Virus record (IMG/VR): IMGVR_UViG_3300047678_000431
Coordinates: 21,174-85,173 of that record
DNA from: a virus
Reading direction: 5' to 3' (one strand)
DNA: 64,000 nucleotides
Shown here: in pieces, positions 7,462 through 35,375 of the stretch
Position numbering within the stretch: position 1 is the first letter of the stretch
Layout of the letters: every line of letters starts with the position of its first letter
Program-made: the position numbers and the translations under genes
Notes under the pieces: model-generated
The model's database searches: none
Told to the model about the DNA's origin: nothing
Seen by the model: only the letters and a program-made list of their open reading frames with translations

Positions 7462-7949
7462 GAGACGGTGAAGATCTTCTTGCCGAGATGCGCATCGAGA
7501 AACGCCGCAACGTTTGTCACCTGGGCGACGCTATACATGCTCGATCCGTGTGGTTGATTAAAGGCGGCGAGAATTTGATTTCGCAATTCCGGCGTGAGTT
7601 CGGGATGAGGATAGTCGGGAATGAGGTCGTGAATTCGCTGTACGGGCGCCGGGATGAAGGCGCTTTCTTGGTCCTCTTCGTTTTCGAAAAGGGCTGATTT
7701 TAACCAAGAGACTTCCCCGACCCATACGCTCGGCGTTTCCGCAAACTTCTTGAATGTATCAAGATCGTCTCGGGCACCTGTCGAGAGAATATGCAACCGG
7801 TTGGTTCGATTTAACATCTCTTGAGGTGAATCATTCGGCGTGCCGAGCCCGCAGAAGTAATGCGATCCGAGTGAATTCCCGAGAAAGAGAAGAAAGTCGT
7901 CTTCGGTTAGATCTTCGGTTACGACGTGAATGTGGAGATCGGCGGACAT
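7455..7949 (-). CDS. Conserved-looking phage hypothetical protein
   Basis: 164 residues from the ATG preceded by GAAAGG. It opens ADLHIHVVTEDLTEDDF, a pattern I associate with phage proteins of unknown function. The HxH in it could suggest a metal site but no other motif supports this. It lies 56 bases after the HAD gene in the same leftward operon. Confidence 0.65.
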   Translation of the reverse strand: MSADLHIHVVTEDLTEDDFLLFLGNSLGSHYFCGLGTPNDSPQEMLNRTNRLHILSTGARDDLDTFKKFAETPSVWVGEVSWLKSALFENEEDQESAFIPAPVQRIHDLIPDYPHPELTPELRNQILAAFNQPHGSSMYSVAQVTNVAAFLDAHLGKKIFTVSW

Positions 7950-8005
7950 ATGCAACCGGCCTTTCGTCGATGGGATCAAGATCCTTGCGCCCGTCGGTCC
8001 TGTTT

Positions 8006-8590
8006 CTAGAAGTCTCCGGGGGCGACTTGGCAACAGAGAAACCCTTGCGATCTCCAAAGATCGACAACGGAATCCCGATCGTCAAAAAAACAGAGGATGC
8101 GATCGCGATCCTCGGTGAGCATATTGTTCAACCATTCGCGTTTGATCTCTACGTCCGGGCGAAAATCTTTGTGATCGCGCATCATAAACAGATCGAAATG
8201 AATGTCGTGCATTGCTAACCAGGCAAGCGTTTGCGACTTGACCTCATCACTTCGCCCCGACCATATCCAAACCTCGACGCCTTGACGTTTGAGGATATGG
8301 AAGATTTCAATGAGTTTGATATTCGGGGTATCGCGCGTGTATGCGAGGTAGAAATTGCTCCATCGCGTGTCGTCATCGACGCCTTCTTCATCAAGGAGAT
8401 GTCTACGATGCGTGACATCCGCGAGCGTGCCGTCGAGATCAAAGATGACGATCGGTCGACGTAATCCTTGGCAATCATAATGATTCGGGATTGATTGTTT
8501 CGCAGCGATCTTGAGAAGATCTCGCTCATGACGCAAGAGATTTAACTCGTTTCGGAGTCGGGCGTTCTCATCTTTAAGGGGTTCAATCAT
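8006..8590 (-). CDS. HAD-superfamily phosphatase (polynucleotide kinase 3'-phosphatase-like)
   Basis: 194 residues from the ATG at 8590, after GAAAGGA. The first ~40 residues form a probable coiled coil. HAD motif I is FDLDGTLAD (two catalytic Asp), motif II is the Ser in IWSGRS, and motif IV is the FFDDRDS acidic pair. This arrangement resembles the phosphatase domain of T4 PseT-like enzymes, which remove 3'-phosphates from nucleic acid. No kinase Walker motif is present, so it is phosphatase only. It overlaps the upstream gene by 8 bases. Confidence 0.75.
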   Translation of the reverse strand: MIEPLKDENARLRNELNLLRHERDLLKIAAKQSIPNHYDCQGLRRPIVIFDLDGTLADVTHRRHLLDEEGVDDDTRWSNFYLAYTRDTPNIKLIEIFHILKRQGVEVWIWSGRSDEVKSQTLAWLAMHDIHFDLFMMRDHKDFRPDVEIKREWLNNMLTEDRDRILCFFDDRDSVVDLWRSQGFLCCQVAPGDF

Positions 8591-8858
8591 TCGAAAGATT
8601 CCTTTCGCATTGTTCAAGAATCTCGTCGATAGTTAAACACGTTTCGTTTGGCCCTGCGCGATTGAATTTCACGTATGACGCATCATCGCAATCGACTGCA
8701 CTTGTGCCTTTCTCAATTACCCTCGCGATTCGAGGATCAGTTGAATACGGCGGGGGCGTCCATCTCTTGCATGAAACGGGAGCGTCGCAGATTGACGACC
8801 ATTCTAATAGATATGACCGGCCGTCGGAGTGCGTCAGATGAACGAGGGTTCTACCCAT
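8583..8858 (-). CDS. Hypothetical protein
   Basis: 91 residues. The start at 8858 is set by the 8-base overlap with the upstream DUF3310 gene. The longer frame upstream is Arg/Ser-rich and looks like a shadow. Cys residues are scattered and no motif is seen. Function unknown. Confidence 0.6.
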   Translation of the reverse strand: MGRTLVHLTHSDGRSYLLEWSSICDAPVSCKRWTPPPYSTDPRIARVIEKGTSAVDCDDASYVKFNRAGPNETCLTIDEILEQCERNLSND

Positions 8859-9291
8859 TCGATTCGCGCATTCTCTTTGAAATTTCTCGCTCGATATACC
8901 ATCGAGCCTTTTGCAAGTCTTCGATGTCCTTGCCTTTTTCGTCAGCGCGCCAGATATATTTGATCGCATTTCCGATATTGAATCCCATATGTTCTGTAAT
9001 GTCGATGCATTCAACGCCGCTCGGATGCGTATTGTAATGCTTCGGATGATGGATTTTCTCACCCTCGGGATTGCATCGGTGCGCTTCATGTGAATCGTAC
9101 CCGGCGCCGCACTCATCGCATCGTTTGGTAGTTAACGGAGAAACTCTATTTGACTTTTGCGCATCTTTGATCGGCGGCTTCCGAATCGAATCAAAGTACT
9201 CTTCGCAATTATGATCATTTTCCAAAACAGAGACGTAAGGTCCGCCGCACCTCATGCATCGCACGGCGCCTTTGACGAATGCTTCAGTCAT
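8851..9291 (-). CDS. DUF3310-family protein with N-terminal zinc-finger-like region
   Basis: 146 residues. The C-terminal ~70 residues match the DUF3310 pattern: HPKHYNTHPSGVECIDI, then FNIGNAIKYIWRADEK, then DLQKARWYIE. This domain also occurs in phage nucleotide-kinase proteins of the T7 gp1.7 type. The N-terminal half has two CxxC pairs (CMRCG, CDECG) likely to bind zinc. A role in nucleotide metabolism is inferred from the family. It starts within a 4-base overlap with the upstream membrane protein. Confidence 0.75.
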   Translation of the reverse strand: MTEAFVKGAVRCMRCGGPYVSVLENDHNCEEYFDSIRKPPIKDAQKSNRVSPLTTKRCDECGAGYDSHEAHRCNPEGEKIHHPKHYNTHPSGVECIDITEHMGFNIGNAIKYIWRADEKGKDIEDLQKARWYIEREISKRMRESNG

Positions 9292-9791
9292 AGCGGCAAA
9301 TCACCCCGTTTCTGTTTCTCATTGATCGCCTCAACGTATTCATCTATCTGCCTTTGCAAGATCGAGGCGCTGGCTAACTCGAGCGCATACATGACCAAGG
9401 TCGCCATGAAGAAAAATGCAAGGGCTAATCCGCCTTGAGATTTCACAATGTCGCTTGCGTGTGCAAAAGCCGTTCCGAGGCCCGCGATCGCAATCGTGAT
9501 CAGGTACATCACCCCCGTCATCGCGCCATTACGAAGCCGGTTGCGCCATTCTTCGAAGAGATGGCCGGACGAGAGGGCGCTCGTCCGTTCGAGGAGCTTG
9601 ACCTGTGGGAAAAGTGAGCAAAACGCCTGCGAGACATCGGCCGGAAAGAAATATGCTCTTTGCCCGAGTTCGCGCAGGCGAGCGGCCTCCTCGTCGCCGT
9701 CGACGGTCGGATCGAGGTTGCGCATGCTCCAACATTTCCGAAATCGGTCTTGAAATAAGAGAACCGGCTTCGCGAAATTCCTACCGTGCAT
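9288..9791 (-). CDS. Two-pass membrane protein
   Basis: Up to 167 residues. A start at 9725 is the alternative. Two hydrophobic segments (about residues 92-112 and 121-142 of the long form) are separated by a short loop, with a polar N-terminal region and a charged C-terminal tail. The ATG at 9791 lies inside a GCGCATTTTTTATGCAC motif that recurs at 11008. Function unknown. Confidence 0.6.
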   Translation of the reverse strand: MHGRNFAKPVLLFQDRFRKCWSMRNLDPTVDGDEEAARLRELGQRAYFFPADVSQAFCSLFPQVKLLERTSALSSGHLFEEWRNRLRNGAMTGVMYLITIAIAGLGTAFAHASDIVKSQGGLALAFFFMATLVMYALELASASILQRQIDEYVEAINEKQKRGDLPL

Positions 9792-9815
9792 AAAAAATGC
9801 GCGAAAGGGAAGCTA

Positions 9816-9844
9816 TTGAAACGCGAGGCGCGCCCGTGTACGAT
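9816..9844 (+). promoter_or_regulatory. Sigma70-like sequence of unclear use
   Basis: TTGAAA, a 17-base spacer, then TACGAT on the plus strand, in a 99-base gap between two leftward genes. It reads against both neighbours, so it may be fortuitous or drive an antisense RNA. The TTGAAA is part of a block that also occurs near 52.5 kb. Confidence 0.25.
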
Positions 9845-9890
9845 TGTATCCGTGAGAATTCCCGAACGGGTATTCCCCGCATGGCGGCCG

Positions 9891-10331
9891 TCAAAACGGG
9901 ATCTCCCCGTCAATCTCATCGTCGCTCGGTTGGTATTGCGACGCATACTCGCTCGCGGTTGCATGCTCACGATGTCCCTGATCGTAACTCGATCCTCCCG
10001 CTGACCCGCTTTCTTTGCGGTCGAGCATTTGCATCGTGTCGATGACGATCTCGGTTGCCTTGCGTTTGTTTCCGTCTTTATCTTCGTAGTTACGGATGAC
10101 CAGGCGCCCCTCGACGAGAACGCTCGATCCTTTTTTCAGATACGTGTTGCACGTCTCGGCGAGTTTTTCCCAAGCCGTAATGTCAATGTATGTCGTTTCG
10201 TCGCCGTTTTTCGTGCGGCGATTGACGGCAAGGGTAAACTTTACGACCCCGGCGCCTGACTGCACGTACCGAATTTCGGGATCACGCGTGAGGTTACCGA
10301 CCAAGATGACGCGGTTGAAACTTCCGGCCAT
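9891..10331 (-). CDS. ssb: Single-stranded DNA-binding protein
   Basis: 146 residues with the bacterial-type SSB OB fold: FNRVILVGNLTRDPE at the N-terminus, then the GVVKFTLAVNR strand, TYIDITAWEKLAE, and the GSSVLVEGRL strand. A Gly/Ser/Gln-rich linker leads to an acidic tail ending DGEIPF, the usual partner-binding tip. It coats single-stranded DNA during replication and recombination, and RecT encoded at 40980 is a natural partner. It is the second gene after a strongly initiated 100-residue gene and overlaps it by one base. Confidence 0.95.
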   Translation of the reverse strand: MAGSFNRVILVGNLTRDPEIRYVQSGAGVVKFTLAVNRRTKNGDETTYIDITAWEKLAETCNTYLKKGSSVLVEGRLVIRNYEDKDGNKRKATEIVIDTMQMLDRKESGSAGGSSYDQGHREHATASEYASQYQPSDDEIDGEIPF

Positions 10332-10633
10332 TATCCGTTTTTCTCCAATTTCTCCGGCATGCCGCGAAATACGCGGACCCCTTGCTCGTCTTCTAGGCGA
10401 ATAAGTACGGCGTCCCGTTGCATGCCGCGCGCCTTGATTGTAATACCGACAACGCCGTCCGCGTTTGGGATCTCCACGAGGTCGATCTCGATACGATGGC
10501 GGTCGCCGCCCTGGTCGCGAAAGCTAAACTCGGCGCTTGATTTCTCGTGCGAGTGAATGACGGAGGTCGACAAGTCGATCTCGGTCGGACCCGCGACGGT
10601 GATATATTTCGGCTCGCTCGTATCGGTACCCAT
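10331..10633 (-). CDS. Hypothetical beta-rich protein
   Basis: 100 residues with an excellent AAGGAG ribosome-binding site. Alternating charged and hydrophobic strands suggest a beta barrel or sandwich. It is the immediate upstream neighbour of ssb with a 1-base overlap, hinting at a DNA-metabolism role. That is inference only. Confidence 0.65.
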   Translation of the reverse strand: MGTDTSEPKYITVAGPTEIDLSTSVIHSHEKSSAEFSFRDQGGDRHRIEIDLVEIPNADGVVGITIKARGMQRDAVLIRLEDEQGVRVFRGMPEKLEKNG

Positions 10634-10684
10634 GCCGCTCCTTTAGGTCTTCGGGGATGTTAAGTTTTACATCGGCGAAATTCT

Positions 10685-10966
10685 TTAGACCATGAGCGAT
10701 GCGCGCGTTTTTTTTCCGATTACACGAGGCGCATCGCTCTCGTGCATCGCCTGAAGTTCGACGTCCTCGATACAGTATTGCAGACTCTCCGGGCGACCGG
10801 ATTTTGCATATTCGGCCTGAAGCTCCCTTGCTTGCCGGACAACCTGCGGCGGGTAGCGCCGCTCGGCAATTTGATCCGGCTTAGGCGAAGACCGCGCGAT
10901 CTCATAGCTCGCGAATCCAAGACCCCCGATTCCGACTGAACCTGCGAACAAGGCGAATACACGCAC
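10685..10966 (-). CDS. Membrane-anchored small protein
   Basis: 93 residues if started at the GTG preceded by GAGGG. The upstream frame lacks a good site. Residues ~2-22 (VFALFAGSVGIGGLGFASYEI) form a signal anchor, followed by a charged helical region. The topology resembles an inner-membrane spanin but no partner is seen, so the role is open. Confidence 0.5.
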   Translation of the reverse strand: MRVFALFAGSVGIGGLGFASYEIARSSPKPDQIAERRYPPQVVRQARELQAEYAKSGRPESLQYCIEDVELQAMHESDAPRVIGKKTRASLMV

Positions 10967-11050
10967 GAAACGAGCCCTCGTTTGATAAGTAGGCGCCGCA
11001 GCACATTGCGCGTTTTTTATGCACTTTACCTCTAGGCATCCGAGGTTTTC

Positions 11051-11794
11051 ATGAGATCGTACGGCGTCAAGTCTCGGGACTTTCATACCGAGCGTTTTGG
11101 CCTTTTCGTCCCGGATCGTCCGGCCGTCGGATTACTCCCGACGACGGTTGAATATCAATATCTCTTTTCGCCCGTTGACGATCAAGGCGATTTTTCCAGT
11201 TGTATTTTCCACGCGAGCAAAGGCATTCTCGACGCGATCATTCGGAAGCGATCGAAGGTCGATCCGGGTGTATCTTGGCGCGCGTTATATTCCGCAACGA
11301 AGCATCTGTTCGAATCGAATGATCTTGCCGATGACGGTGCGGTTATCGAACACGGCCTCAATTTGCTCATGCAATACGGATACGTCGAAGAATCCGCGTG
11401 GACCGATGTCGACGTCACCCCCGACAATGTGTTGACTCCGGTGCCCGATGATCTCTTCGTGAAAACCGATACGGTCACAAGTATTCTTCGCGTCGGTATC
11501 AACGAAGAAAGCTTTTGTCACGCGTTATATGGTCACGGCCCGATTATCATCGGCGTGAATTGGCCGAGTGCGTGGGAATTTCCAACCGATGCGAGCGGCA
11601 TTCTTGATCCGAATGTCTCCGACATTGCGGGCGGTCATTGTGTCGTCATCACCGGGTATCGCCGACAGTCGAACGTCACGTATTATCACATTCGCAATTC
11701 GTGGGGCACTGCATGGGGTGATCGCGGTTATGGGTGGATGCCCGCAAGCGGACTCGGGTTCGTCACAAACGCCTACACCGTTCAAATTCCCTAG
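11051..11794 (+). CDS. Papain-like (C1 family) cysteine peptidase
   Basis: 247 residues, with ATG 5 bases after GAGG. The full papain signature is visible: Gln45 (oxyanion hole) six residues before Cys51 in QGDFSSC, His196 in GGHCVVITGYR, and Asn216 in RNSWGTAWGDRGYGW. The domain spans nearly the whole protein and there is no signal peptide or obvious propeptide. It ends 17 bases before the portal gene and is probably co-transcribed with the head genes. It could process a virion protein or be delivered into the host. C1 peptidases are uncommon in phages. Confidence 0.85.
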   Translation: MRSYGVKSRDFHTERFGLFVPDRPAVGLLPTTVEYQYLFSPVDDQGDFSSCIFHASKGILDAIIRKRSKVDPGVSWRALYSATKHLFESNDLADDGAVIEHGLNLLMQYGYVEESAWTDVDVTPDNVLTPVPDDLFVKTDTVTSILRVGINEESFCHALYGHGPIIIGVNWPSAWEFPTDASGILDPNVSDIAGGHCVVITGYRRQSNVTYYHIRNSWGTAWGDRGYGWMPASGLGFVTNAYTVQIP

Positions 11795-11811
11795 CACGAA
11801 GGAGCGCCGCG

Positions 11812-13548
11812 ATGCCGTCATTGATTTCCTCAATACAAAAAAGCGTCGCGCGCATCCTCGCCGGTCCCGACATTAACATTCCGCGTAAAGGTGCGATCTC
11901 TCCGGTTTCAATCAAACAAGATCGTCAGTTTATGGACGGCGGTCGGATCGAGCCGCGCAACATCATTGCGCGCAATAACCTGCAATCGCTTGCCGAGCGT
12001 GATGATGTGATCGTCGCCCTTCGCCGCGTGTTGCGCAACGGTATCGGAAATCTCAAATGGCACATAGTCCCCGATATTGACGCAATCGAAGCCGACATCA
12101 AGCGATGGAAATCGACCGTTGCGCTGAACCTTGCCATGCCGGGCATGCACATGACGTTTCATCCGCAGGCGATGACGCATGAGTTTTATGCTGGTGCAAC
12201 CGGTGAGTTGCGCGATCTTCTCGTTTCTGAAGCTGAAACAGGTGCCGAGTTCGAAACCTCGACGCGATTGCATCAATTTTTCGAAAACATTCTCGCCGCG
12301 CATAGCGTGATCGCGGAAAGTCACGTCGCCGAGGTGAAGTCCCTCTTCGATAAACCGAACGCAAATGACACCTGGAGAAGTTTCATTTCGCGGGTTGTTG
12401 ATCAGTTGTCGCTCTTCGATGCCGCTGCAATCGTGAAGAATCCGATGATGAACGAAGATCGCATCGGTGAGATCTATCTTCTGCCCGGCGAAGACGTGCG
12501 CGTCTATCGTCGGCGCGATCTTCTCCAACCGATTCCGCCCTTTACGGCGTTTGATTGGTCGGTCAATGATCGGATCTTCGCGTATTTCAATGCGTTTGAA
12601 ATGTGCTATATTACCGCGAACCCGCAGCAGAACGGATACGGGAAACCGCCGCTTGAGGCGCTCGTACAACAAATGCTCGGATCAATTTCCGGTGATCAGT
12701 ATCTTCTCGAATTCTTCGCAAATAATAACATGCCCGCCGGTATCTTTGACCTCGGCCCGAACGTTGATCAAGGTGAACGAGACGCAGTCGAAACGCACGT
12801 GAACAATCAAGCGCGCAAAGGTTTGCGGCGCATTATGTTCGTGTCGAACATGGATGGCGTCAAGGGATTTATGCCCATGCCGCAGCAGCCGATGAAAGAT
12901 AATGACATCGTCAACATGTTCGACATGTGGACGAAGCGAAAAGCTGCCGTCTTTGGGCTTTCTCCGAATGACATCGGACATACGCAAGATATGCATCTTG
13001 CAAATGCGGATAATCAAGCCGAACTGACGCAATCTCGCGGCATTGATTCGATCGCCAAAGCAATCGAGAACGAACTCAATGTCCATATCGTCAAAGGTAC
13101 GATGTGGCGCCGTAATAATCCCGAAGACGTCAATGATCCGACCGGTATTCCGATGCCGGTCTTTCCCTTTCAAGACGTACGATTCGAATTTATTACCGGC
13201 GAGAAGGATGAGAACGCCGATCTCTCTGATCGTGATCTCAAACTTTGGGGCATGGGCGCCCTGTCGACAAACGAGATTCGCAAGTCGCATGGATTGCCGC
13301 CGGTCCCCGGCGGTGATACGCATGTCGTCAATCAGCAGGTGACGATGAAAGTCGATGACCTGCCGAATCTTCCCGCGCCGACGCAAATGGACACTGAGGT
13401 CCGCTTGCCCGATGGCCGCGAGCGTGATGAACGTCCAGGCGCAAACGCGCAGCAAAACGAGCAAAGACCGCCGACGCCGTCACCGGAACAGGCGGAAAAA
13501 AACCTTACCGCGTTAGCTCATAAGCTCGCGCAGATCGTCAAAGGGTGA
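11812..13548 (+). CDS. Portal protein
   Basis: 578 residues from ATG 11812, after GGAGCG. Portal-like features: an N-terminal region with RDDVIVALRRVLRNGIGNLKW, a long central helical stem region, and a late QAELTQSRGIDSIAKAIENELN helix typical of the portal clip/wing in Mu-like and SPP1-like proteins. A Gln/Pro-rich tail (~535-578) follows. It forms the dodecameric vertex through which DNA is packaged. The next downstream proteins are Mu-F-like and protease genes, as expected. Confidence 0.85.
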   Translation: MPSLISSIQKSVARILAGPDINIPRKGAISPVSIKQDRQFMDGGRIEPRNIIARNNLQSLAERDDVIVALRRVLRNGIGNLKWHIVPDIDAIEADIKRWKSTVALNLAMPGMHMTFHPQAMTHEFYAGATGELRDLLVSEAETGAEFETSTRLHQFFENILAAHSVIAESHVAEVKSLFDKPNANDTWRSFISRVVDQLSLFDAAAIVKNPMMNEDRIGEIYLLPGEDVRVYRRRDLLQPIPPFTAFDWSVNDRIFAYFNAFEMCYITANPQQNGYGKPPLEALVQQMLGSISGDQYLLEFFANNNMPAGIFDLGPNVDQGERDAVETHVNNQARKGLRRIMFVSNMDGVKGFMPMPQQPMKDNDIVNMFDMWTKRKAAVFGLSPNDIGHTQDMHLANADNQAELTQSRGIDSIAKAIENELNVHIVKGTMWRRNNPEDVNDPTGIPMPVFPFQDVRFEFITGEKDENADLSDRDLKLWGMGALSTNEIRKSHGLPPVPGGDTHVVNQQVTMKVDDLPNLPAPTQMDTEVRLPDGRERDERPGANAQQNEQRPPTPSPEQAEKNLTALAHKLAQIVKG

Positions 13549-14023: not shown

Positions 14024-14917
14024 ATGCATACACTCGAATTCGACCTCGGCATGATTGCGATTAAGAGTCGCAAGCCGGTTCGCGAAGTCATCAAAGCGTT
14101 GCAAGATCACTGGAATCTTCCGCGATACGCCCCAAACCTGCGCAAGGCGGCGGGGGATGACGACGGTTCGAGTACGGCTGGAAATCATGACATCCCGGAG
14201 ATCGGACGACAAGAGGCCGCTTTTTATAACGCTCTCACCGCCGGTCAAAAAGAGGCGTATGCCGCCATCCGGGAACTTGTCAATCGTTTGCATGAAAGCA
14301 AGGGCGGATGGGCCGGGATTAACCCCTGGGACATCGACGAACCGATTGATCAGTGGAAAGACAACGCATTTTATGAACTCGCAACGCATCCGATGCGTGC
14401 GTATATGGTCGGTCAGATGCTTGCGACCGATGCAATCGACAATGGCCTCGCGCGGCCAGTTTTGCCGACCGACACGCAAGCGATCGAATTCTTAAATTCA
14501 TATGCGTTCAACGAGATTCAATCGGCATTCGATAACATGAAGTCGGATCTTCGCAACGCGCTCATTCAGGGGATGCAACGCGGGGACAACCCGCGCGAGG
14601 TTACGCGTGCGCTTCATGACACGATCAGCGGATACGAAATCGACTGGGATCTCATCGCAATCACCGAAACCGCGCGCGCCGAGAGTCAAGGCCGACTTAA
14701 CGAACTTACCGATCAAGGTTATGAGTACGCAATCGGATCAAGTGCGCACGACTCGCGCACCTGCGAAGATTGTTTGCGCCTGGTCAACGATGTGGTCGTC
14801 GATGTGAAAGATACTGTCGGCGTTTCAAATTATGGGCGCAAAAAAGCTGACTGGGTGACATGCATACCGCTACATCCGCGATGCCGTTGCGTATGGCTCC
14901 CCTACTCGCAACCGTGA
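14024..14917 (+). CDS. Mu gpF-like head morphogenesis protein
   Basis: 297 residues. The C-terminal half carries the Phage_Mu_F pattern: GMQRGDNPREVTRAL, ITETARAESQGR, then SAHDSRTCEDC and HPRCRC cysteine/histidine blocks. Family members are minor capsid proteins bound near the portal. It follows a strong hairpin, so its level may depend on read-through. Confidence 0.8.
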   Translation: MHTLEFDLGMIAIKSRKPVREVIKALQDHWNLPRYAPNLRKAAGDDDGSSTAGNHDIPEIGRQEAAFYNALTAGQKEAYAAIRELVNRLHESKGGWAGINPWDIDEPIDQWKDNAFYELATHPMRAYMVGQMLATDAIDNGLARPVLPTDTQAIEFLNSYAFNEIQSAFDNMKSDLRNALIQGMQRGDNPREVTRALHDTISGYEIDWDLIAITETARAESQGRLNELTDQGYEYAIGSSAHDSRTCEDCLRLVNDVVVDVKDTVGVSNYGRKKADWVTCIPLHPRCRCVWLPYSQP

Positions 14918-14925
14918 GGAATACA

Positions 14926-15441
14926 ATGCCAACACTTTTAGAAGTTTTACAGCCGAACCCGACGGCGGCGGACATTATGATCAAGGCACGCACGGTCGGC
15001 GAACTCGTTTTGAAATCAGAAGACGAAGTTTCGATTGATAGCGGAACCGGCGGTCATGACATGCCGAACGGGTCGTATGAACGAGCGATCTCCCTCGCCG
15101 GTGGCCCGACGATCAAGGCAACGCCTTGCCCGAGCAGTCAATCCGGCCCGTATTACGACGATTATTCGCCGAATGGCGCATACCATTCGCCGCACGTCGT
15201 CGGCACGTTCCCTGATCATACGATCGTCGGATGCGACGCGTGCGATCGGTACTGGAAAGTGCCCTATGAAATCAAAGATGACGAGGGTCGTGCGACCGTG
15301 ATGACGGGTGAGCCCGAGGCGCGCGTCCGCGCATTTATGGACCCCGCCGCTGCGAAGGACGCCCTTTCCGATCCGCCATTTAACCCGGCATCTGCCGTCG
15401 ACGATCCGACCCCGTCCGCCGAGGGCGGCGAAACCGTATAA
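14926..15441 (+). CDS. Hypothetical head-module protein
   Basis: 171 residues starting after GAGGAA. It contains CDACDRYW, a CxxC pair, in the middle and an acidic Pro-rich C-terminus. No family recognised. Position suggests a minor capsid or assembly role. Confidence 0.65.
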   Translation: MPTLLEVLQPNPTAADIMIKARTVGELVLKSEDEVSIDSGTGGHDMPNGSYERAISLAGGPTIKATPCPSSQSGPYYDDYSPNGAYHSPHVVGTFPDHTIVGCDACDRYWKVPYEIKDDEGRATVMTGEPEARVRAFMDPAAAKDALSDPPFNPASAVDDPTPSAEGGETV

Positions 15442-15466
15442 CCGCTCTCACGAAGGGGACTTTGCA

Positions 15467-16186
15467 ATGTATCAATCAGCTTTTACCTCGCAAGAACTCA
15501 CGGATCACTATCCGGTCAGCACGACCCCGCTTCTGCTCAAGACGATCGCGCAGGTCGACGACCTTATTCAGCAGGGCGTGATCAGTGACAACGAACTTCG
15601 CCAACTCTTGCCGATTATCGGGGCCGCAATGGACCCGAACGTCGAGAAGGTCACCGTCGGCGGCGCAACCTATACCGGAACGGCTGGCGGCGTCACGCGC
15701 ACGTATTTCGCGATTCCGCTCTATCCTCTGCCGACCGGCAGTGCGGCAAATCCCCGTGGCGTCTATTTGAATCAATATCCGCAGAATCCGCCGGGCGGCC
15801 GTCTGACGCAAACGAATTACATTAGTGAAAACGACATGGTCAAGAATTACGTCGGGGGATCGGCCGCAAACCCGCCGACCGGCCACGTGGTCACCGATAC
15901 GCAAACCGAACTCGATCAATCGAATTACGTGACCTTAGTCGCGCCGGTTGCGAGTGCAAGCGTGATCCCGAATGTCTTGTTTGAAATCTATTGCGAAGCG
16001 ACCACGACCGCCCCGTCGACGCTCATGCGATACCTAGTCGCAACGCGCGTCGCTCCGGGCGCAACCGTCATCGACGGGAACCAAGTCGCTCGCGCCTACA
16101 CGTTGCCCGCGCATACCGGGTTTGCGGTCGACAAGTCCGGTTCGACGCCGGTTGCAATCCCCGGACCTCGTTCGTTCATCATCTAA
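15467..16186 (+). CDS. Probable head decoration or minor capsid protein
   Basis: 239 residues from the ATG 6 bases after AAGGGGAC. After an N-terminal helical segment the protein is rich in Gly, Thr, Val and Pro, typical of beta-rich capsid-surface proteins. No specific family. The assignment is by position and composition. Confidence 0.55.
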   Translation: MYQSAFTSQELTDHYPVSTTPLLLKTIAQVDDLIQQGVISDNELRQLLPIIGAAMDPNVEKVTVGGATYTGTAGGVTRTYFAIPLYPLPTGSAANPRGVYLNQYPQNPPGGRLTQTNYISENDMVKNYVGGSAANPPTGHVVTDTQTELDQSNYVTLVAPVASASVIPNVLFEIYCEATTTAPSTLMRYLVATRVAPGATVIDGNQVARAYTLPAHTGFAVDKSGSTPVAIPGPRSFII

Positions 16187-16192
16187 ATTCAT

Positions 16193-16489
16193 ATGGAATT
16201 TGAGATCGGGCGACAAGATCGGGCGACGCTGCCAATGGCACGCGATAAGATGGGATCTAAAGATTCGGTTGTCGTGCATGTAAAAGTCTTAAGCGATGAT
16301 TTACGTGAAATTCAGGAGACGACGCGTGCGGTCACACGCGCCGTCGCTGATGCTCGCGTTCATGGCAAACAGATTAGCGTCGTCGTGACGGACGAAAAAG
16401 TTCAAATGAGCATCGGCGACATGAAGCAACTTGCTTCGTATGTCACGGCTGAAGTTATGAAAGCCCTGCACATCCCCTCGCCGACTTAA
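16193..16489 (+). CDS. Hypothetical protein
   Basis: 98 residues. The ATG at 16193 follows the previous stop by 6 bases without a clear ribosome-binding site, and an internal Met at ~16250 is the alternative. It alternates strand and helix (SVVVHVKVL, helix, SVVVTDEKV, helix). Function unknown. Confidence 0.6.
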   Translation: MEFEIGRQDRATLPMARDKMGSKDSVVVHVKVLSDDLREIQETTRAVTRAVADARVHGKQISVVVTDEKVQMSIGDMKQLASYVTAEVMKALHIPSPT

Positions 16490-16521
16490 AACATCCTTTA
16501 CCGAGTGAAAGGGTTCCCGCG

Positions 16522-17868
16522 ATGCAATTACAGCATCGCCGATTTTTCATTCCCTTTGCTAAGGAAAAGATCGACAAAGAACGTCGTATCGTCTGGGGCA
16601 TTGCGCAAGAAGAATCGGTTGATACACAAGACGACCGCCTCATGTACGATGCGTCAGTCGCCGCGTTTTCTGCGTGGGCCGGAAACATTCGCGAGCAACA
16701 CGATGATAGTAAAGCCGTAGGTCGAGCGATTGAGATTATCGCCGATCCAAAAGCGAAGACCATCACCGTCGGCGCGCGTATTTCGCTCGGTGCCGAGGAT
16801 ACGTGGCAAAAGGTTCTCGATGGTACGCTTACCGGTTATTCAATCGGCGGCGTTCTTCAGGAATTTGCGCTCGACTATGATCCTGAATATCAGAGAAATA
16901 TTCGCAACGTGACAAAGTACGAACTGTACGAGCTTTCGCTCGTCGACGTTCCGGCGAATTCAGGTTGCGTGATTACCGCCGTGCAGAAGCGCGGTACACA
17001 TCTCGTCGCGACCGACGTGCTTGCGCACAGTCTCGGCGCGCTAACTGCGAGCGACGTGCTCAACATGAAGAAAGCGAGTCAACCCATGCCAAACGCAAAG
17101 CGCGCCAAGGTACAAACGATCGTCAGCTTCGCCAAATCACTCGGCGCGAACGATGAGGTTATTCTTCTTCGCACAAGCGACCTAAGCAAAGCAAAAGACG
17201 GAAGCATCGTCTTGAAGTCGACGGCTCCCGTCTCGGGCATTATTCGCAAAGATGATCTCGACGCCGACGGTTATACCGATGAATCCGATGACACAAGCAG
17301 CGAGAACGAACCCGAACAAATCGACTTTGAGCAACATGCCGAGAACGCCGCAAAGATGCATAAAGCATTTTGCAAGATGGGCGGCATTGACGACAACGAA
17401 GGCCATTATCTCGAATCGACCAAGGAAGACGGCGATGACGATATGGCTATGGGTGACGAGCCAAAGGATGACCCGTCGGGCATGAAGTCGCGTCGTTTAC
17501 GCCGCGAAAAAGCGCGTCGCATCGAGGCCGCAAAATCGGCAACGCAAAGCAAACTTGAAGCGCAAGTCGCGGCGTTGAGCGATCAAGTTGTTGCCTTGAC
17601 GAAGACCCTTTCCTCCGGCGGATCAACGACAGCCGTGACCCCGCGCGTCGGCGCCGGTCAAGCTGGTACCGTGGTCGAGAAGGGCGGCGTCGCCGTCGCG
17701 AATTCGCAAGAAGCGCGCCTCGCCGAACTCAAATCCAAGGCCGCCGAGATGGTCAAGTCCGGTTCTAAAGGTCTTACCCAAAAAGATCGCGCCGAACGCG
17801 ACGCAACGCTTAACGAGATTCTATCTCTTGAGACGGCGATCCGCGCAGGTTTCGACCCGAAAGCCTAA
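16522..17868 (+). CDS. XkdF-like prohead protease fused to scaffold-like C-terminus
   Basis: 448 residues after GAAAGGG. Residues ~1-160 resemble the XkdF/HK97-type prohead serine protease: IVWGIAQEESVD, then IREQHDDSKAVGRAIE with the likely catalytic His, TGYSIGG with a candidate Ser, and YELYELSLVDVPANSG. The region after ~165 is polar and acidic, with coiled-coil stretches typical of scaffolding proteins. This self-removing protease-scaffold layout fits its place immediately before the capsid gene. Confidence 0.8.
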   Translation: MQLQHRRFFIPFAKEKIDKERRIVWGIAQEESVDTQDDRLMYDASVAAFSAWAGNIREQHDDSKAVGRAIEIIADPKAKTITVGARISLGAEDTWQKVLDGTLTGYSIGGVLQEFALDYDPEYQRNIRNVTKYELYELSLVDVPANSGCVITAVQKRGTHLVATDVLAHSLGALTASDVLNMKKASQPMPNAKRAKVQTIVSFAKSLGANDEVILLRTSDLSKAKDGSIVLKSTAPVSGIIRKDDLDADGYTDESDDTSSENEPEQIDFEQHAENAAKMHKAFCKMGGIDDNEGHYLESTKEDGDDDMAMGDEPKDDPSGMKSRRLRREKARRIEAAKSATQSKLEAQVAALSDQVVALTKTLSSGGSTTAVTPRVGAGQAGTVVEKGGVAVANSQEARLAELKSKAAEMVKSGSKGLTQKDRAERDATLNEILSLETAIRAGFDPKA

Positions 17869-28891: not shown

Positions 28892-30301
28892 ATGACGATG
28901 GATTCGTCGATTGACCGTACGCAGGCGCGCGTAATCGCTATTTGTTTTGACGGAACGGTTCTGCAATTAAACGAGATTGAACAAATCAACGTTACGAAGT
29001 CTGATACCGGCGACGCGGGTGAGTTTACGATCTCCCTTGCGCTCGGCCTAAATCTTCCCGCTGCCGTGAAATTGCAGCCGATGGATTATATCGCAATCTT
29101 TGTCGGCCGCAACTCGACATCGACCGGTGGTTCAAAGGCGGCGGGCACGAATTCTGATCCGTTTCCGGCCCTTGGTCCGAGTAACGTGCAAGGCCTTACC
29201 TATGGGGCCGAAGGCGCGCAGATTACCAAGACCCTCGGCGCATTCTCCTCGTGTCTCATGATCGGGATGCTTGACGTCGTCCATGAGACGCAAACGTTCC
29301 AAGGGCAACCGACGGCGACGCTCGAGCTTCGGGGACGTGACCTCACGAAGATCTTCCTCGACAACGATACCTTCGTACAATATTCGATTCCCGCGAGTGA
29401 TCCGAATAATGATAACGGCGTCGCGAGCCTTTTGCAGATTCCGCTACGGACCGCAACGAGCGGAACGCGTCTTCTCCTCGACATCTTAAACGTCTTTTGT
29501 AAAAAGAACCCTCCCTCGATCATCCCGTATTCGGGCGCAGGCGGCGCGCAAGCCGTTAACACGGCCGGGTATCTCACTGGTGATGCACTTGCGCAAGTGC
29601 AGGCGTACGGGTATAACTGGGACCGGTTTATTTCGACCGCACATCTCGACATCAATTTCGTGAGTCTCTCGTCGGACTTCTTCCCGACGTATTCCGTACA
29701 AAGCGGAAGCGTGTGGGCGAATTGCCTTGAACTTCGGAACTTTCCCGTCTGCCGACTCTATGTCGACGAACTCGGTAATCTCATCTATGACGATCAATAC
29801 ACCGTATGGACGAATCCTGCGATCGCCGGAACGATTGAAGCGGCCGATGTGCGCAGTTCTGAGTTTTGGCAAACCGACGAAGATCTTCTCACCGCGATCA
29901 CGGTAATTCCCGCGCTTGCGAACTGCGCCGTCAGTGAGATCGCGGCATTGTTATCGACGGCGCGATCACGCGTCCCGGTTGACAAGGATACTATCCAGCG
30001 ATTCGGTTACCGATGGACTTCGTTTGTTTCGCAATATGATTCCGTCAAGGCATTTCAGACGCTCGATAAACGTTTCAAGGCCCTTTGGCTATTGCATAAC
30101 ACGTTGACGCGCGGGCGCGTTATCGTCAAAGGTGATGCGAAGTTCCGAGTCGGTCAACGGTATCAGCTGAATTTCGGAGGGGCAAACGCTGCAACGCAAT
30201 TCCGTTCGTGGTATGTGACAAACACTGATCACAATTATCAGTTTGGTTCCGATTACACGACGACCCTTGAATTGCGTTACCCGTTGCCGGTCGCAAAATG
30301 A
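28892..30301 (+). CDS. Baseplate hub protein (gp27/gpD-like)
   Basis: 469 residues. The N-terminal beta region (VIAICFDGTVLQLNEIEQI, then TGDAGEFTISLALG) and a MLDVVHETQTFQGQPTATLE section resemble hub proteins of the gp27/XkdQ type. It overlaps the spike gene start by 4 bases. It forms the ring that holds the spike at the end of the tube. Confidence 0.7.
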   Translation: MTMDSSIDRTQARVIAICFDGTVLQLNEIEQINVTKSDTGDAGEFTISLALGLNLPAAVKLQPMDYIAIFVGRNSTSTGGSKAAGTNSDPFPALGPSNVQGLTYGAEGAQITKTLGAFSSCLMIGMLDVVHETQTFQGQPTATLELRGRDLTKIFLDNDTFVQYSIPASDPNNDNGVASLLQIPLRTATSGTRLLLDILNVFCKKNPPSIIPYSGAGGAQAVNTAGYLTGDALAQVQAYGYNWDRFISTAHLDINFVSLSSDFFPTYSVQSGSVWANCLELRNFPVCRLYVDELGNLIYDDQYTVWTNPAIAGTIEAADVRSSEFWQTDEDLLTAITVIPALANCAVSEIAALLSTARSRVPVDKDTIQRFGYRWTSFVSQYDSVKAFQTLDKRFKALWLLHNTLTRGRVIVKGDAKFRVGQRYQLNFGGANAATQFRSWYVTNTDHNYQFGSDYTTTLELRYPLPVAK

Positions 30302-31215
30302 TAGAACAAGGTCGATATAAGAATCAAAGCTGTTTCAATTATACTGAGACGATTGCCGCGCGCGTGCTGTACTGTTATCAGCTTCCCGATAGTGATACGA
30401 AATCACGTGTCTTATATGCGCAATGTGCCGCCCTCGATGGGCGATCCACGTGGAAGGCACGGGTCGCATCCAGTTTCGGCGTCTCGCGCAATGTTCGCCG
30501 TGGCACGATCGTCGCGTTGAGTTTCATCTCGGGTCTTTCAAATTACCCCGTCATTATCGGGCACATGCCGAACGAAGAAACGAATCCGGGTTCTGCGAAT
30601 CCGCTTCCCCCTCCGCATATGACGCCCTCGGATCAAGTCTACTACCATCCCGAAACCGGCGCGTTTCTCAAGATGAGTTCCGCAAAGGCGACGCCGACGG
30701 ACCCTGGCCCCGATAACGCTCCCGGGTTGATCGACATCGAACTTGCGTCGGGCGCTGCTTTCCATTTGAGCGAAAGCGACGATCGGACATACGGGAGCGT
30801 GACGCTCAATATGCCGTCGGGTGCGACCTTGCAGCTTGCGGACGCGAGTTCGAGTTCGTCGGCGTTCACGTTGACTTTGCCGTCGGGCTTCTCGATGCAA
30901 GTCGACGCAAGCGGAAACCTGATGATGCAATCCCCCGGCACGGCGCACATTGAATCGACCGGCCCGATGACGATTGATTCTTCGGCGAGTGTTGAGGTTT
31001 CCGCGCCGTCGGTTGCCTTGAACTCGGCGAACGTTGCGCTCGGCGGGACCGCCGGATCGGGTCGTCAGCTTGCGTTTCAAGATCAACTGCAAGAAGTGCG
31101 AGACTTTCTCGCGGTTCACAATCATAGCGGCGTGCAGGGCGGCCCGGGAAACACCGGTCCGCCGGTAGGCGCGCCGATCGAGCCGACCGGTACGACGAAT
31201 ACAAAAGCCGTTTAA
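30298..31215 (+). CDS. Baseplate spike protein (gpV/gp5-like)
   Basis: 305 residues. An N-terminal OB-fold-like region (RVLYAQCAALDG, then GTIVALSFISGLSNYPVIIGHMPNE) is followed by repetitive beta strands (SGATLQLADASS, SGFSMQVDASG, ESTGPMTIDSSA) typical of the triple beta-helix. A C-terminal VHNHSGVQGG holds the HxH that binds iron at the spike tip of P2 gpV-like proteins. It pierces the outer membrane or cell surface. Confidence 0.85.
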   Translation: MIEQGRYKNQSCFNYTETIAARVLYCYQLPDSDTKSRVLYAQCAALDGRSTWKARVASSFGVSRNVRRGTIVALSFISGLSNYPVIIGHMPNEETNPGSANPLPPPHMTPSDQVYYHPETGAFLKMSSAKATPTDPGPDNAPGLIDIELASGAAFHLSESDDRTYGSVTLNMPSGATLQLADASSSSSAFTLTLPSGFSMQVDASGNLMMQSPGTAHIESTGPMTIDSSASVEVSAPSVALNSANVALGGTAGSGRQLAFQDQLQEVRDFLAVHNHSGVQGGPGNTGPPVGAPIEPTGTTNTKAV

Positions 31216-31224
31216 GGGGATGCC

Positions 31225-32787
31225 ATGAGGTCACTTCGCGCAGCACTCTTTTTGATCTTTCTCCTTGCGGCCGCAATCCCGGCGACGCTCGTCAATGCGC
31301 AATCGGCGACGTATGTCTATGCGCCGCAGTTTGTCGATGCGAACAATCACCCGCTCGCGGGCGTGACCGTCATTCTCTATAATCACGGCGCAGCGCAAAA
31401 CCCGGGTAATGTCATCGCATCGGGAACAACCGATTCGACCGGTCATCTCTCCCCCGGCGTAACGCTTGAGATCGGCAGTGTGTATGATTTCACAACGTCC
31501 TCACCGGCTGTGCCGCAAGGACAGTTCACGGCGACGGCTCCGCGTCAATTAGTCTTGATCCCCGGTCCTGCCGGTCCGACCGGGCCGCCTGGTCCGGCGG
31601 GATCTCCTGGTCCGACGCTTCCCCCGATCACCATTACCGGCACCGGCGGCGCGACGGTCACGCAACCGACACCCGGCGCGTATGTCATTAACGCCCCGAC
31701 GGCCGCGCCTGCGGGTGCGGGCGTGCCGACCGGCGGTGGATGCGTCTCGCTGAACGGATCAACGAATCCGAACACGCTGACGAATACCGGATATACATGC
31801 GGTGCGTATAACACGGGCGCGTTCTATATCCCGGCCGTCGGATCGTCTGTCGGGATCACGACCGAGCCCGGGAACGCCGCGTTTAATGCGGGTACACCTC
31901 TTACGATTACCGATGGTACAAATATCATCGACGGGCACGTGACGACCTCGACCTCAAGCTATAGCGCGCAATCGTTTACCTTTACCACCGACCGCATTAT
32001 CCACGGCACGGCCGGGCAGTTCATGGGCGCATATTCGCAAATCTCGAGCGGATCGTATTCGTCCGGTATGCCCTTTACCGCCGGTGATGCGAATATCGTT
32101 TTCGGAGGCACGCCCGCCGCGCCGACGTTGTCTCTGGCGACAAGCCCGTCGATCACTGGCACATATTTTGCCCTCGCCGGTTCAAGTGGGACGTTGAACT
32201 ACGGTATCTATATCGGTGGACCGTCAACGGCGAATTTCCCGCATGCAATCGGCATCACGAATGACGCGGGAAACAATACAACGATCGGCGTCGATGATAC
32301 GCACTCGGTTGCCGGAACGTCGGGAAGATGTCTTTCGATTGCGCAAGACAATTCCGGTACTTACAAGGGCGAGTTACTTGGCCTTGATTGTTCGGGGAAT
32401 CTTGGTATCTTGGGTGCGTACACATCGGCGTCGAGTCGTCATCTCAAAGACAATATTTCACCCTTTAGCACGGATGAATTGCAACGCGTTCTTCATTCGA
32501 CCAAGATCGTGAAGTATTGCTATAAGTCAGAACATTGCAAATCGCATGAAACACGTGAAGTCGGAATCATCGCAGAAGATACGAGTTCACTGATTGCCGG
32601 TTCGAAACACGATCATCTTGACGTCGGCACGATGGCGAGCGTCTCGTTCTCGGCGTCGCAATACAACGACCGGCGAATTGTCGATCTTGAATCCGTCATT
32701 CACTATCTTCGCATCGCGATTTTTGGTCTATTGATCATAAATTGCGCGATCGTCTTCCATCTCTTTTATCGCAATCGAGGTCGCTAA
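31225..32787 (+). CDS. Fibre-like protein with signal peptide, collagen repeat, S74 domain and C-terminal TM anchor
   Basis: 520 residues. Order: signal peptide ~1-25 ending in an A-x-A-like site; an Ig-like carboxypeptidase-regulatory region (DANNHPLAGVTVILYN); a short collagen run (GPAGPTGPPGPAGSPGP, ~113-130); a long Gly/Ser/Thr-rich fibre region; then an S74 intramolecular chaperone with SSRHLKDN, giving the self-cleaving Ser403/Lys408 dyad, and later NDRRIVDLESVIHYL. A final hydrophobic helix at ~495-515 is followed by RNRGR. Signal peptide and C-terminal anchor are unexpected for a tail fibre. The last base overlaps the next ATG. Confidence 0.75.
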   Translation: MRSLRAALFLIFLLAAAIPATLVNAQSATYVYAPQFVDANNHPLAGVTVILYNHGAAQNPGNVIASGTTDSTGHLSPGVTLEIGSVYDFTTSSPAVPQGQFTATAPRQLVLIPGPAGPTGPPGPAGSPGPTLPPITITGTGGATVTQPTPGAYVINAPTAAPAGAGVPTGGGCVSLNGSTNPNTLTNTGYTCGAYNTGAFYIPAVGSSVGITTEPGNAAFNAGTPLTITDGTNIIDGHVTTSTSSYSAQSFTFTTDRIIHGTAGQFMGAYSQISSGSYSSGMPFTAGDANIVFGGTPAAPTLSLATSPSITGTYFALAGSSGTLNYGIYIGGPSTANFPHAIGITNDAGNNTTIGVDDTHSVAGTSGRCLSIAQDNSGTYKGELLGLDCSGNLGILGAYTSASSRHLKDNISPFSTDELQRVLHSTKIVKYCYKSEHCKSHETREVGIIAEDTSSLIAGSKHDHLDVGTMASVSFSASQYNDRRIVDLESVIHYLRIAIFGLLIINCAIVFHLFYRNRGR

Positions 32788-33164
32788 TGTCCTCACCGCA
32801 AATTGACGTCGATCCGAATATTACGATCATCACACCCGACTCGGCACTTCCACTGCCGCCGGTGATTTCGCAAATCGGTCAGATCACGACGAACGTCATT
32901 TGCGTGATCTATCCGCCGACGGTGACGACGGCCGCCGCGATCGGTCAGATTTTGCTTTATCGCGCACCGACGCCGCATGGTCCTTGGACCCTCGTCGATC
33001 AACGGACGATTTCCGACATCTCTCGGAAAAACAACCTTTTCGACACCGATCCCCTTTTCGGTATTACGTCTTACTATGGGGCGACGGTCATTGATACCGT
33101 CGGAAACGCTTCGACGTTGTCCGTTCTTCAGCAGATTTCACCCGCCGCATCTTCGGGGTCTTAA
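32787..33164 (+). CDS. Fibronectin-like small tail protein
   Basis: 125 residues starting in a TAATG overlap. Beta-sandwich pattern (ILLYRAPTPHGPWTLVDQR and SYYGATVIDTVGN resemble a fibronectin type III fold). The N-terminal part of the next protein has similar wording, so the two may be related modules. Probably a baseplate accessory. Confidence 0.55.
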   Translation: MSSPQIDVDPNITIITPDSALPLPPVISQIGQITTNVICVIYPPTVTTAAAIGQILLYRAPTPHGPWTLVDQRTISDISRKNNLFDTDPLFGITSYYGATVIDTVGNASTLSVLQQISPAASSGS

Positions 33165-33169
33165 CGTCT

Positions 33170-33982
33170 ATGTCGTTTTTTTATGCGACCGATCCGACGG
33201 TCATTGCGGGGATACCGGCCGCAACGACGACGGTCGAAAGTCCGATGCTCTTGTCCGTCGGGCAGGCAAGCGGGATCGGGGTTGCCTCGGCGCTCCTTCC
33301 TGATCAAGTGACGAATGCGTCGGTTGCGTCGATGCAGCTTTTGCGTACGCTTCCCGGCGGGATGCAAATGCCGGTGGATACCCGAGACGTCGATCGCAAT
33401 TCGCGATGGATGAACCTCTTCGATCAAAACCCGGCCGATGGTCAGATTGCGACATACGCGGTCGTCGCCATTTCTGAAGACGGCACGCAATCGAGTGAAT
33501 CAAATTCGATTACATACACGGCGTACGGAAATCCGCCGCCCCTCGCGTCGGCCGGTGGTATTTCAGCGGGGGCGCTTGGGACCTACCCGCTTCTCGGGAG
33601 TGATGTCTATATCAACCCGATTTCCGGTGAGGCCGTCATCGGTCCGAATGGTGACCTCTTGACGGTCAACGGCCTCGCACTCCTCGGCCAGGATCTCAAT
33701 ACGCGCATTCGCACGAAGATCGGCGAACTCGTGTTTCACCCGGATTTCGGCCTGTTTGGTGGCCTGATCGGAAGCGGTCAATCCGATCCCGCGACGATGG
33801 CAAACACGCTGCGCACGCGGGTCATTGACGCGATCACGGCTGACGCGCGTGTCTATCAGCTTGACGAGGTTATCATTGCGCACCCGTATTTTGACGGGTG
33901 GCAAATCTCATACCTTGTGTATGCGATCGGCGTCGAGGACCCGCTACGCGGAAACCTTGTGTATCCCTATTTGAACGGCTAG
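33170..33982 (+). CDS. Baseplate wedge protein with C-terminal gp25-like domain
   Basis: 270 residues. The first ~125 are Ig/FN3-like (LLRTLPGG, then ATYAVVAISEDGTQSSESN). The C-terminal ~125 match gp25/W-like lysozyme-fold wedge proteins: GPNGDLLTVNGLALLGQDLNTRI and IGELVFHPDFGLFGGLIG. Fusion to an FN3-like domain is less usual. Precedes the J gene as in other myoviruses. Confidence 0.75.
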   Translation: MSFFYATDPTVIAGIPAATTTVESPMLLSVGQASGIGVASALLPDQVTNASVASMQLLRTLPGGMQMPVDTRDVDRNSRWMNLFDQNPADGQIATYAVVAISEDGTQSSESNSITYTAYGNPPPLASAGGISAGALGTYPLLGSDVYINPISGEAVIGPNGDLLTVNGLALLGQDLNTRIRTKIGELVFHPDFGLFGGLIGSGQSDPATMANTLRTRVIDAITADARVYQLDEVIIAHPYFDGWQISYLVYAIGVEDPLRGNLVYPYLNG

Positions 33983-34000: not shown

Positions 34001-34040
34001 CGTGCTTGCGTGCGTGCGTGTATGCGTGCGTTCGTGTTTT
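34001..34040 (+). repeat. TGCG-tract element a
   Basis: CGTGCTTGCGTGCGTGCGTG then TATGCGTGCGTTCGTGTTTT, in the gap before baseplate J. It shares the CCCGTGCTTG lead with element b and the GTGTATGCGTGCGT core with element c. Confidence 0.7.
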
Positions 34041-34067
34041 TGCGTACCTTCGAAAGGCGGCGCCCGG

Positions 34068-35375
34068 ATGTCGACATCCACCGTTTCAACGACGTTTTCG
34101 ACGACGAATCCATCGGCGTCGCTGCCGTCCTATCCGACGGCTGCCGAGATTCTGATCGGTATTCAACAATCGGTTCAAAAACTCAATGGACTTATCACAA
34201 ATTTCAATGCGGGCGGCGTGACGGAAACCTACCTTGAAGGACTCTCGATCCTTTTAGGTTCGGATTCTTCGACGTTGCCGAATGTGACGATCGAGGGGGC
34301 TTATGAACTTCTCGCAACCGTGGCCGAATCGGCCTATGCATCCACCGCAAAAGGACCGGCACTTGATCTCAAGGGCCTCGATGTCGGCGTTGAACGCAAG
34401 CAGGCGACCACCGCGACGGCACCATTGCAATTCGCTCTTCCCCAACCGGCGACCGCGCCCGGTTATGTTATAGCGGCGAATACCATTTGCAGCGCAAACC
34501 CGGCCGACCCGACGCAAGGCCCGATTCTCTTTCAAACGACCGAGGCCGTCGTCGTCCCGACGGGGCAAACGCTTGCCCCGAATACCGTGCCGAGTGTGGC
34601 GATGGTCGCCGGTTCAAACGGTAACGTCATCGCCGGTGCGATCAATACCTGTATCACAAACGGTCAGTTGATTGTCACGAACCCCGGCAAGGCAAGCGGC
34701 GGGACCGATACCGAGATTGACGACGGCAATGATGGGGGGTATCGCAAGCGCGTCCTTGCCGCGATCCCAAACTCCTCACAATGCACGATCGCGGCCATCG
34801 AAAACGATGCGCTCGCGTTTCCGATTACCTCGGCCGTTCTCGTAGAAAATACCGCTGACGACGGCGTCACGCGGGAGCTTGGGCGCGGACAACTCTACAT
34901 CGACGACGGGTCGGGTGATCTCGGCAGTAGCTCAAACCCAAATTATGCATCGTTTGTCGCATTGCAAAACGCGTTTGATACGGGACTTTACCGCGCGGCC
35001 GGAACGCAAGTGCATGTTCGGGGTTCCGAATCGGTTGCGGTGGTTATTTCGCTTTCCATTACCGCAAGTACGCAAGCGATTACCCTCGGCGCATCCGAGG
35101 CGAGTATTGCATCCGATGTGCAGTCGGCGATTTACTCCTATGTTCAATCGCTTGTGATGGGGCACCCTGTTGACGTTGCGTCGATCGTTGCAATCGCAAA
35201 GAATGTCTTGTATAACGGCGGCGATACGAATGAGGTCGCAAACGTCAACGTTTCAAGCGTGCTCATCAATGGATCGAATTCTGATTTCACGCCGCAAGTG
35301 TATCAGCTTCCGCGCGTGCTCCCGAACATCTCGTCGATCACGGTCAACGTGACCGGCGTGTCTTCCTACGTGTAA
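34068..35375 (+). CDS. Baseplate J-like protein
   Basis: 435 residues from ATG 34068 (GAAAGG upstream; the longer frame runs through the TGCG tract). Typical gpJ features: TYLEGLSILLGSDSS, AYASTAKGPALDLKGLDVGVERK, the GGTDTEIDDGNDGGYRKRVL segment, and a C-terminal ASIVAIAKNVL helix region. It is a wedge component holding tail fibres and linking hub to periphery. Confidence 0.85.
   Translation: MSTSTVSTTFSTTNPSASLPSYPTAAEILIGIQQSVQKLNGLITNFNAGGVTETYLEGLSILLGSDSSTLPNVTIEGAYELLATVAESAYASTAKGPALDLKGLDVGVERKQATTATAPLQFALPQPATAPGYVIAANTICSANPADPTQGPILFQTTEAVVVPTGQTLAPNTVPSVAMVAGSNGNVIAGAINTCITNGQLIVTNPGKASGGTDTEIDDGNDGGYRKRVLAAIPNSSQCTIAAIENDALAFPITSAVLVENTADDGVTRELGRGQLYIDDGSGDLGSSSNPNYASFVALQNAFDTGLYRAAGTQVHVRGSESVAVVISLSITASTQAITLGASEASIASDVQSAIYSYVQSLVMGHPVDVASIVAIAKNVLYNGGDTNEVANVNVSSVLINGSNSDFTPQVYQLPRVLPNISSITVNVTGVSSYV

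Follow-up and report, generated by a model that had tools for sequence, protein, structure and literature searches.

A contractile-tail phage carries, among its baseplate genes, a gene for a fibre-like protein of 520 amino acids (31225..32787, + strand) whose S74 domain is predicted to lie between an export signal and a C-terminal membrane anchor. The architecture is real; it is uncommon for a phage, and bacterial genomes offer precedents for it. The reading we prefer, in which our confidence is about even, is that the product is a Sec-exported, trimeric fibre protein anchored in the inner membrane, made with the late baseplate genes, whose stalk would release itself and whose role would lie outside the virion.

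The window, meaning the whole 64,000-nucleotide stretch analysed here, is taken from a linear viral contig of 85,173 bases, of which it covers positions 21174-85173; coordinates refer to the window unless the contig is named. Its contractile-tail gene set runs in the order portal, head protease, sheath (phrog_279 match, E 3e-25), tape measure, spike, gp25-like, Baseplate_J and gpI-like. No close relatives were found in viral contigs using single-sequence patterns for the S74 protein, baseplate J, sheath and terminase, and the terminase is ~23% identical over its length to those of the closest public phages. The phage SSB (9891-10331, - strand) is 65-69% identical to the SSBs from three Candidatus Eremiobacterota genomes and from one further genome, while the next-best match, from a Peptococcaceae MAG, reaches only 51-52%, so that on the basis of this one gene Eremiobacterota, a soil phylum, is the probable host phylum. 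Since genome work on WPS-2 describes Eremiobacterota (WPS-2) as diderm (PMC6664022), the host of the phage is likely diderm as well. A search of 149 Eremiobacterota genomes for baseplate J gave no match. Two hits of a spike search (L194 and L195) were judged on inspection to be chance.

The placement of the S74 gene within the baseplate operon, which the original prediction had asserted, is confirmed. Directly upstream is a gpV-like baseplate spike gene (30298..31215, +), recognized by baseplate PHROGs and a weak GpV apex motif (E 0.03). The S74 gene starts with an ATG at 31225, 9 nt past the end of the spike gene, and AAGGGG (31214-31219) lies 6 nt upstream of this ATG, at ribosome-binding distance. 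At its 3' end, TAATG combines the TAA stop with the start ATG of a small ORF (125 aa; 32787..33164, +) that had no Pfam or PHROG family match. There follow genes for a gp25/W-like baseplate wedge protein (33170..33982, +; phrog_975, E 4e-9) and a Baseplate J-like protein (34002..35375, +; PF04865, E 2.6e-15; phrog_6, E 6e-31), with a gpI-like gene also downstream; sheath, tape measure and portal are elsewhere in the window. The reading frame of the S74 gene is intact, and a frame error was ruled out as the sole explanation of the ORF, its codon score and gene overlaps being normal.

This setting gives rise to the main rival reading, that the protein is a virion component, a fibre or spike attached to the baseplate, with its hydrophobic ends buried in the trimer or contacting the host membrane during injection. 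The gene lies between spike and gp25, abutting its neighbours in a block where virion proteins are expected, and phage tail fibres commonly contain collagen, a beta stalk and S74; a signal peptide, however, would take the chain out of the cytoplasm, the site of virion assembly, and we consider this reading rather unlikely. We favour an envelope or extracellular role, given the cytoplasmic assembly of virions and the presence of further candidate fibre genes in this phage (window 36063-37427, and two encoding long repeat/LamG proteins at contig 7187-13243). The first of these genes, located after the gpI-like gene, encodes a 454-aa protein that is likely an ordinary tail fibre, its family matches being only marginal. 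The other two (contig 7187-10357 and 10382-13243) encode very long proteins with many short IGAAMxI-type repeats, probable long fibres, and the second of these proteins has two laminin-G/ConA-like lectin stretches.

The S74 (intramolecular chaperone auto-processing) domain was found as a PF13884 match at residues 403-453 (32431..32583; this and all other features within the gene are on the + strand), with E 2.1e-4 and 21.9 bits, just below the curated cut-off of 22; by alignment it extends to ~490. The protein also matches phrog_17524, 'tail protein' (E 8e-7). The Ser-Lys dyad is intact, as claimed earlier: Ser403 (codon 32431..32433) and its partner Lys408 (codon 32446..32448) are both invariant across 32 aligned S74 sequences. 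Their equivalents are S587 and K592 in MyRF and S911 and K916 in endoNF, where cleavage falls directly before the serine (PMC8326128); the cleavage predicted here lies between residues 402 and 403. An AlphaFold2 model of residues 321-520, built with 29 sequences, has S74-like secondary structure and a C-terminal helix, and a Foldseek search with it returned viral S74 proteins at probability 1.00. The best PDB match, by sequence and by fold, is the MyRF ICA domain (7dc3), non-significant in either case (fold E-value 0.27). Given the marginal profile matches, the invariant S403 and K408, and the fold matches to viral S74 proteins, we regard the S74/ICA assignment as secured at the level of alignment and model.

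Upstream of the S74 domain we distinguish a beta domain (residues 27-112; 31303..31560) that by eye is carboxypeptidase-regulatory/transthyretin-like, a collagen-like run of six GPx triplets (residues 114-131; 31564..31617), and a beta-rich stalk (residues 132-402; 31618..32430), in which an alignment with S74 lipoproteins of the probable host phylum covers residues 346-402, the rest being assigned by inspection. Modelled alone by single-sequence AlphaFold2, the N-terminal domain had a low-confidence pLDDT of 56.5, and the hits of a search with it (L058 and L059) were judged on inspection to be chance.

Both ends of the protein bear out what had been proposed for them, an export signal and a membrane helix, by the simple rules on which these two calls rest. 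Residues 1-25 (31225..31299; MRSLRAALFLIFLLAAAIPATLVNA, followed by QS) form a predicted Sec signal peptide, with R2 and R5, an uncharged hydrophobic core, and an SPase I site VNA/Q, the cut being predicted after VNA25; no lipobox is present at the N-terminus, there being no Cys near the predicted SPase I site. Of the 82 genes called in the window, 2 satisfy the signal-peptide rule; when the S74 protein was shuffled at constant composition 5000 times, the rule fired 118 times. At the other end, the best 19-residue hydropathy window (residues 497-515; 32713..32769) is charge-free, is followed by the basic tail RNRGR, and has a mean Kyte-Doolittle value of 2.33, among the three highest in the called gene set. 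An equally hydrophobic C-terminal window arose in 5 of 5000 shuffles, which rules out a chance hydrophobic tail as the sole explanation. In the AlphaFold2 model a continuous helix of 52 residues (467-518; 32623..32778) leads from the S74 coiled coil into the membrane helix, with pLDDT of 86-98 per 10-residue block and 95-98 across the greater part of its membrane half. No motif of a C-terminal sorting signal (LPXTG or PEP-CTERM like) was seen, the S74 helix continuing straight into the membrane segment. Signal peptide and membrane helix are thus, as far as sequence can tell, real features, and since a signal peptide is combined with a C-terminal helix and a basic tail, the protein is predicted to be a type I inner-membrane protein, with residues 26 to ~496 outside the cytoplasm and the S74 domain in the periplasm.

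Two other readings turn on these ends. Translation from an internal start would skip the signal peptide and give a cytosolic fibre; in-frame GTG codons do occur at residues 47, 86 and 96, but no recognisable ribosome-binding site precedes them, whereas the ATG at 31225 has its well-spaced AAGGGG, and we hold such a start to be highly improbable. The protein might instead act in lysis like a unimolecular spanin, linking the inner membrane to the outer envelope, since in T1 gp11 too an N-terminal export signal and a C-terminal membrane helix flank a beta-rich periplasmic part (PMC6139136). Compared with that layout, the phage protein has the C-terminal helix but not the N-terminal lipobox; at 520 aa it is much larger, its gene lies in the baseplate block and not in a lysis cassette, and cleavage by its S74 domain would sever the membrane-envelope link, making a spanin role very unlikely.

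Further candidates for export are encoded on the contig. Upstream of the window (contig 14845-16743) is a gene for a 632-aa predicted lipoprotein (lipobox LASC) in which a long linker of Pro-Thr repeats is combined with a C-terminal part that looks enzyme-like; it has no Pfam match and is predicted to be a second exported protein on the phage contig. A 426-aa protein encoded at window 1932-3212 has a hydrophobic, possibly exported N-terminus and enzyme-like sequence, and likewise lacks a Pfam match.

To place the architecture among phages, S74 proteins were sought in several ways. A tblastn search of the phage collection with the S74 protein gave no match at E 0.01, an alignment of diverse S74 domains (A1) was too divergent for pattern search, and a search with a motif-only alignment (A2) gave no confirmed match. 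Scanning viral contigs with the S74 region of the phage protein yielded 44 phage loci, of identity comparable to that of the Eremiobacterota matches described below. At these loci the ORFs finish with the usual coiled coil, for example VGVLIKAIQQLEARIKELESK; a C-terminal membrane helix was found in 0/44, and a signal peptide in 0/38 of the ORFs with complete 5' ends. When Bacteroidota S74 proteins served as seeds in a second scan, 80 loci were returned, again with no C-terminal membrane helix (0/80); a signal peptide was found in 4 of the 40 with complete 5' ends, two of these four looking identical. Signal peptide and C-terminal helix occurred together in none of the 124 phage S74 loci from both scans. 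Since no C-terminal membrane helix was found in the 44 + 80 loci, the predicted combination of signal peptide, S74 and C-terminal helix is unmatched among the sampled phage S74 proteins. The absence of the signal peptide from the 38 first-scan relatives, and of the helix from all 124 loci, also counts against a virion component. Several viral-contig S74 proteins (L197, L198, L264 and L271) have a signal peptide without a C-terminal membrane helix, and phages or prophage flanks may encode exported S74 proteins more widely.

Bacterial genomes give a different picture. It had been supposed that S74 domains normally end a fibre protein, which is too strong a statement: bacterial S74 proteins often have a signal peptide, as do many in Bacteroidota, and five Bacteroidota S74 ORFs (L130, L134, L136, L137 and L139) have a C-terminal membrane helix, with YadA-head-like repeats preceding S74 and a signal peptide evident in four. 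The predicted architecture therefore exists in cells and is not unique in biology. Among the Eremiobacterota, S74 domains were found in 9 of 149 genomes, and several of the proteins are lipoproteins that combine GGGxxN repeats with S74 and a coiled coil. Two short Eremiobacterota lipoproteins (L056 and L057) are the best matches to the C-terminal third of the phage protein, with 30-32% identity and E near 1e-14 over residues 346-502; their genes lie near those for a nucleotidyltransferase, an epimerase and other sugar-biosynthesis-like genes (loci L081 and L082). A search of 379 Myxococcota genomes gave no match. Eremiobacterota also have an expanded set of exported S74 proteins (L061-L080) carrying GGGxxN repeats, several with a lipobox, including nine S74 loci in a single genome (G121); no description of this set was found in the literature searched.

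These relatives raise the question of host-derived cargo (a moron), in which the phage would have captured a cellular exported S74 protein whose surface function is unrelated to the timing of infection. Such an origin would fit the presence of two chromosomally encoded Eremiobacterota lipoproteins among the closest S74 relatives found, and the frequent occurrence of exported S74 proteins in Bacteroidota. The similarity, however, is only ~30% and does not extend beyond the C-terminal third, comparable identity is reached by 44 phage loci, and the position of the gene suggests late expression with structural genes, so that we judge cargo of this kind distinctly unlikely.

The favoured reading, a late, exported and anchored fibre protein, can be laid out in five steps. 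First, the gene would be co-expressed with the spike and wedge genes; their packing is observed, and common transcription is taken from it. Second, the chain would be exported through Sec, and the signal peptide is predicted to be removed after residue 25. Third, the S74 domain and a C-terminal three-helix coiled coil, such as the S74 C-terminal helices form in MyRF (PMC8326128), are predicted to trimerise the chain in the periplasm, the coiled-coil helices continuing as three inner-membrane helices. Fourth, as the conserved residues suggest, correct folding of the trimer would trigger the Ser403/Lys408 cut before Ser403, so that the trimeric collagen-like and beta stalk (residues 26-402) comes free and the S74 trimer remains membrane-bound; such self-cleavage and stalk release are plausible. 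Fifth, and least certain, the stalk would have its place of action in the envelope or beyond the infected cell; its most likely role would be that of an adhesin-like element or of one occupying receptors or glycans, in superinfection exclusion or surface modification, and not that of a virion part. This last step is suggested by export, and the adhesin-like or occupying function is a guess. The export signal, C-terminal anchor, intact dyad and baseplate location together mean that the protein is probably exported and membrane-displayed late in infection, much as the original prediction proposed.

Should the predicted topology hold, this would be a tail-fibre chaperone adapted to serve in a protein that is exported, anchored in the membrane and encoded within a baseplate gene block, and the fibre-like genes in such a block would not all encode virion parts. 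The protein would also be a prokaryotic analogue of the order stalk, S74, membrane helix, of which MYRF/MrfA is, to our knowledge, the only established example. The finding points as well to exported, sometimes membrane-anchored S74 proteins in Eremiobacterota and Bacteroidota, of which the literature searched held no description.

Among known systems, phage S74 fibres and tailspikes (endosialidase NF, the T5 L-shaped fibre and GA-1 gp12) share with the phage protein the Ser-Lys dyad, the collagen or beta stalk and the C-terminal helix, but have neither signal peptide nor C-terminal membrane helix. The Eremiobacterota lipoproteins are likewise exported S74 proteins, two of them similar in sequence as noted, but are mostly anchored by an N-terminal lipobox and end in a soluble coiled coil. 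The Bacteroidota ORFs resemble the phage protein in layout, with S74, a C-terminal membrane helix with a basic tail or flank, and in four of five a signal peptide; they are cellular genes, with YadA-head-like repeats in place of collagen and a longer coiled coil between S74 and membrane, and the likeness is one of layout.

MYRF/MrfA offers a parallel in order, an ICA (S74) domain followed by a single membrane helix being found in the phage protein as well, and in both the expected self-cleavage leaves S74 in the membrane. The proposed identity with MyRF topology therefore stands for domain order and cleavage chemistry. It is wrong for orientation, since MyRF has no signal peptide and is type II, with the N-terminus and ICA in the cytosol and the C-terminus in the ER lumen (PMC3742443), while the phage protein is predicted to be type I. 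MYRF further has an Ndt80-like DNA-binding domain, and Pfam found no Ndt80 domain in the phage protein. A MYRF-like device in the phage is in our view unlikely: here a folding-sensing S74 trimer tethered in the host inner membrane would cut itself late in infection, and the trimeric fibre thus set free into periplasm or medium might, for instance, occupy receptors or glycans and block superinfection or progeny re-adsorption. The phage protein is not a MYRF-type membrane-bound transcription factor; only the logic of cleavage and release is alike.
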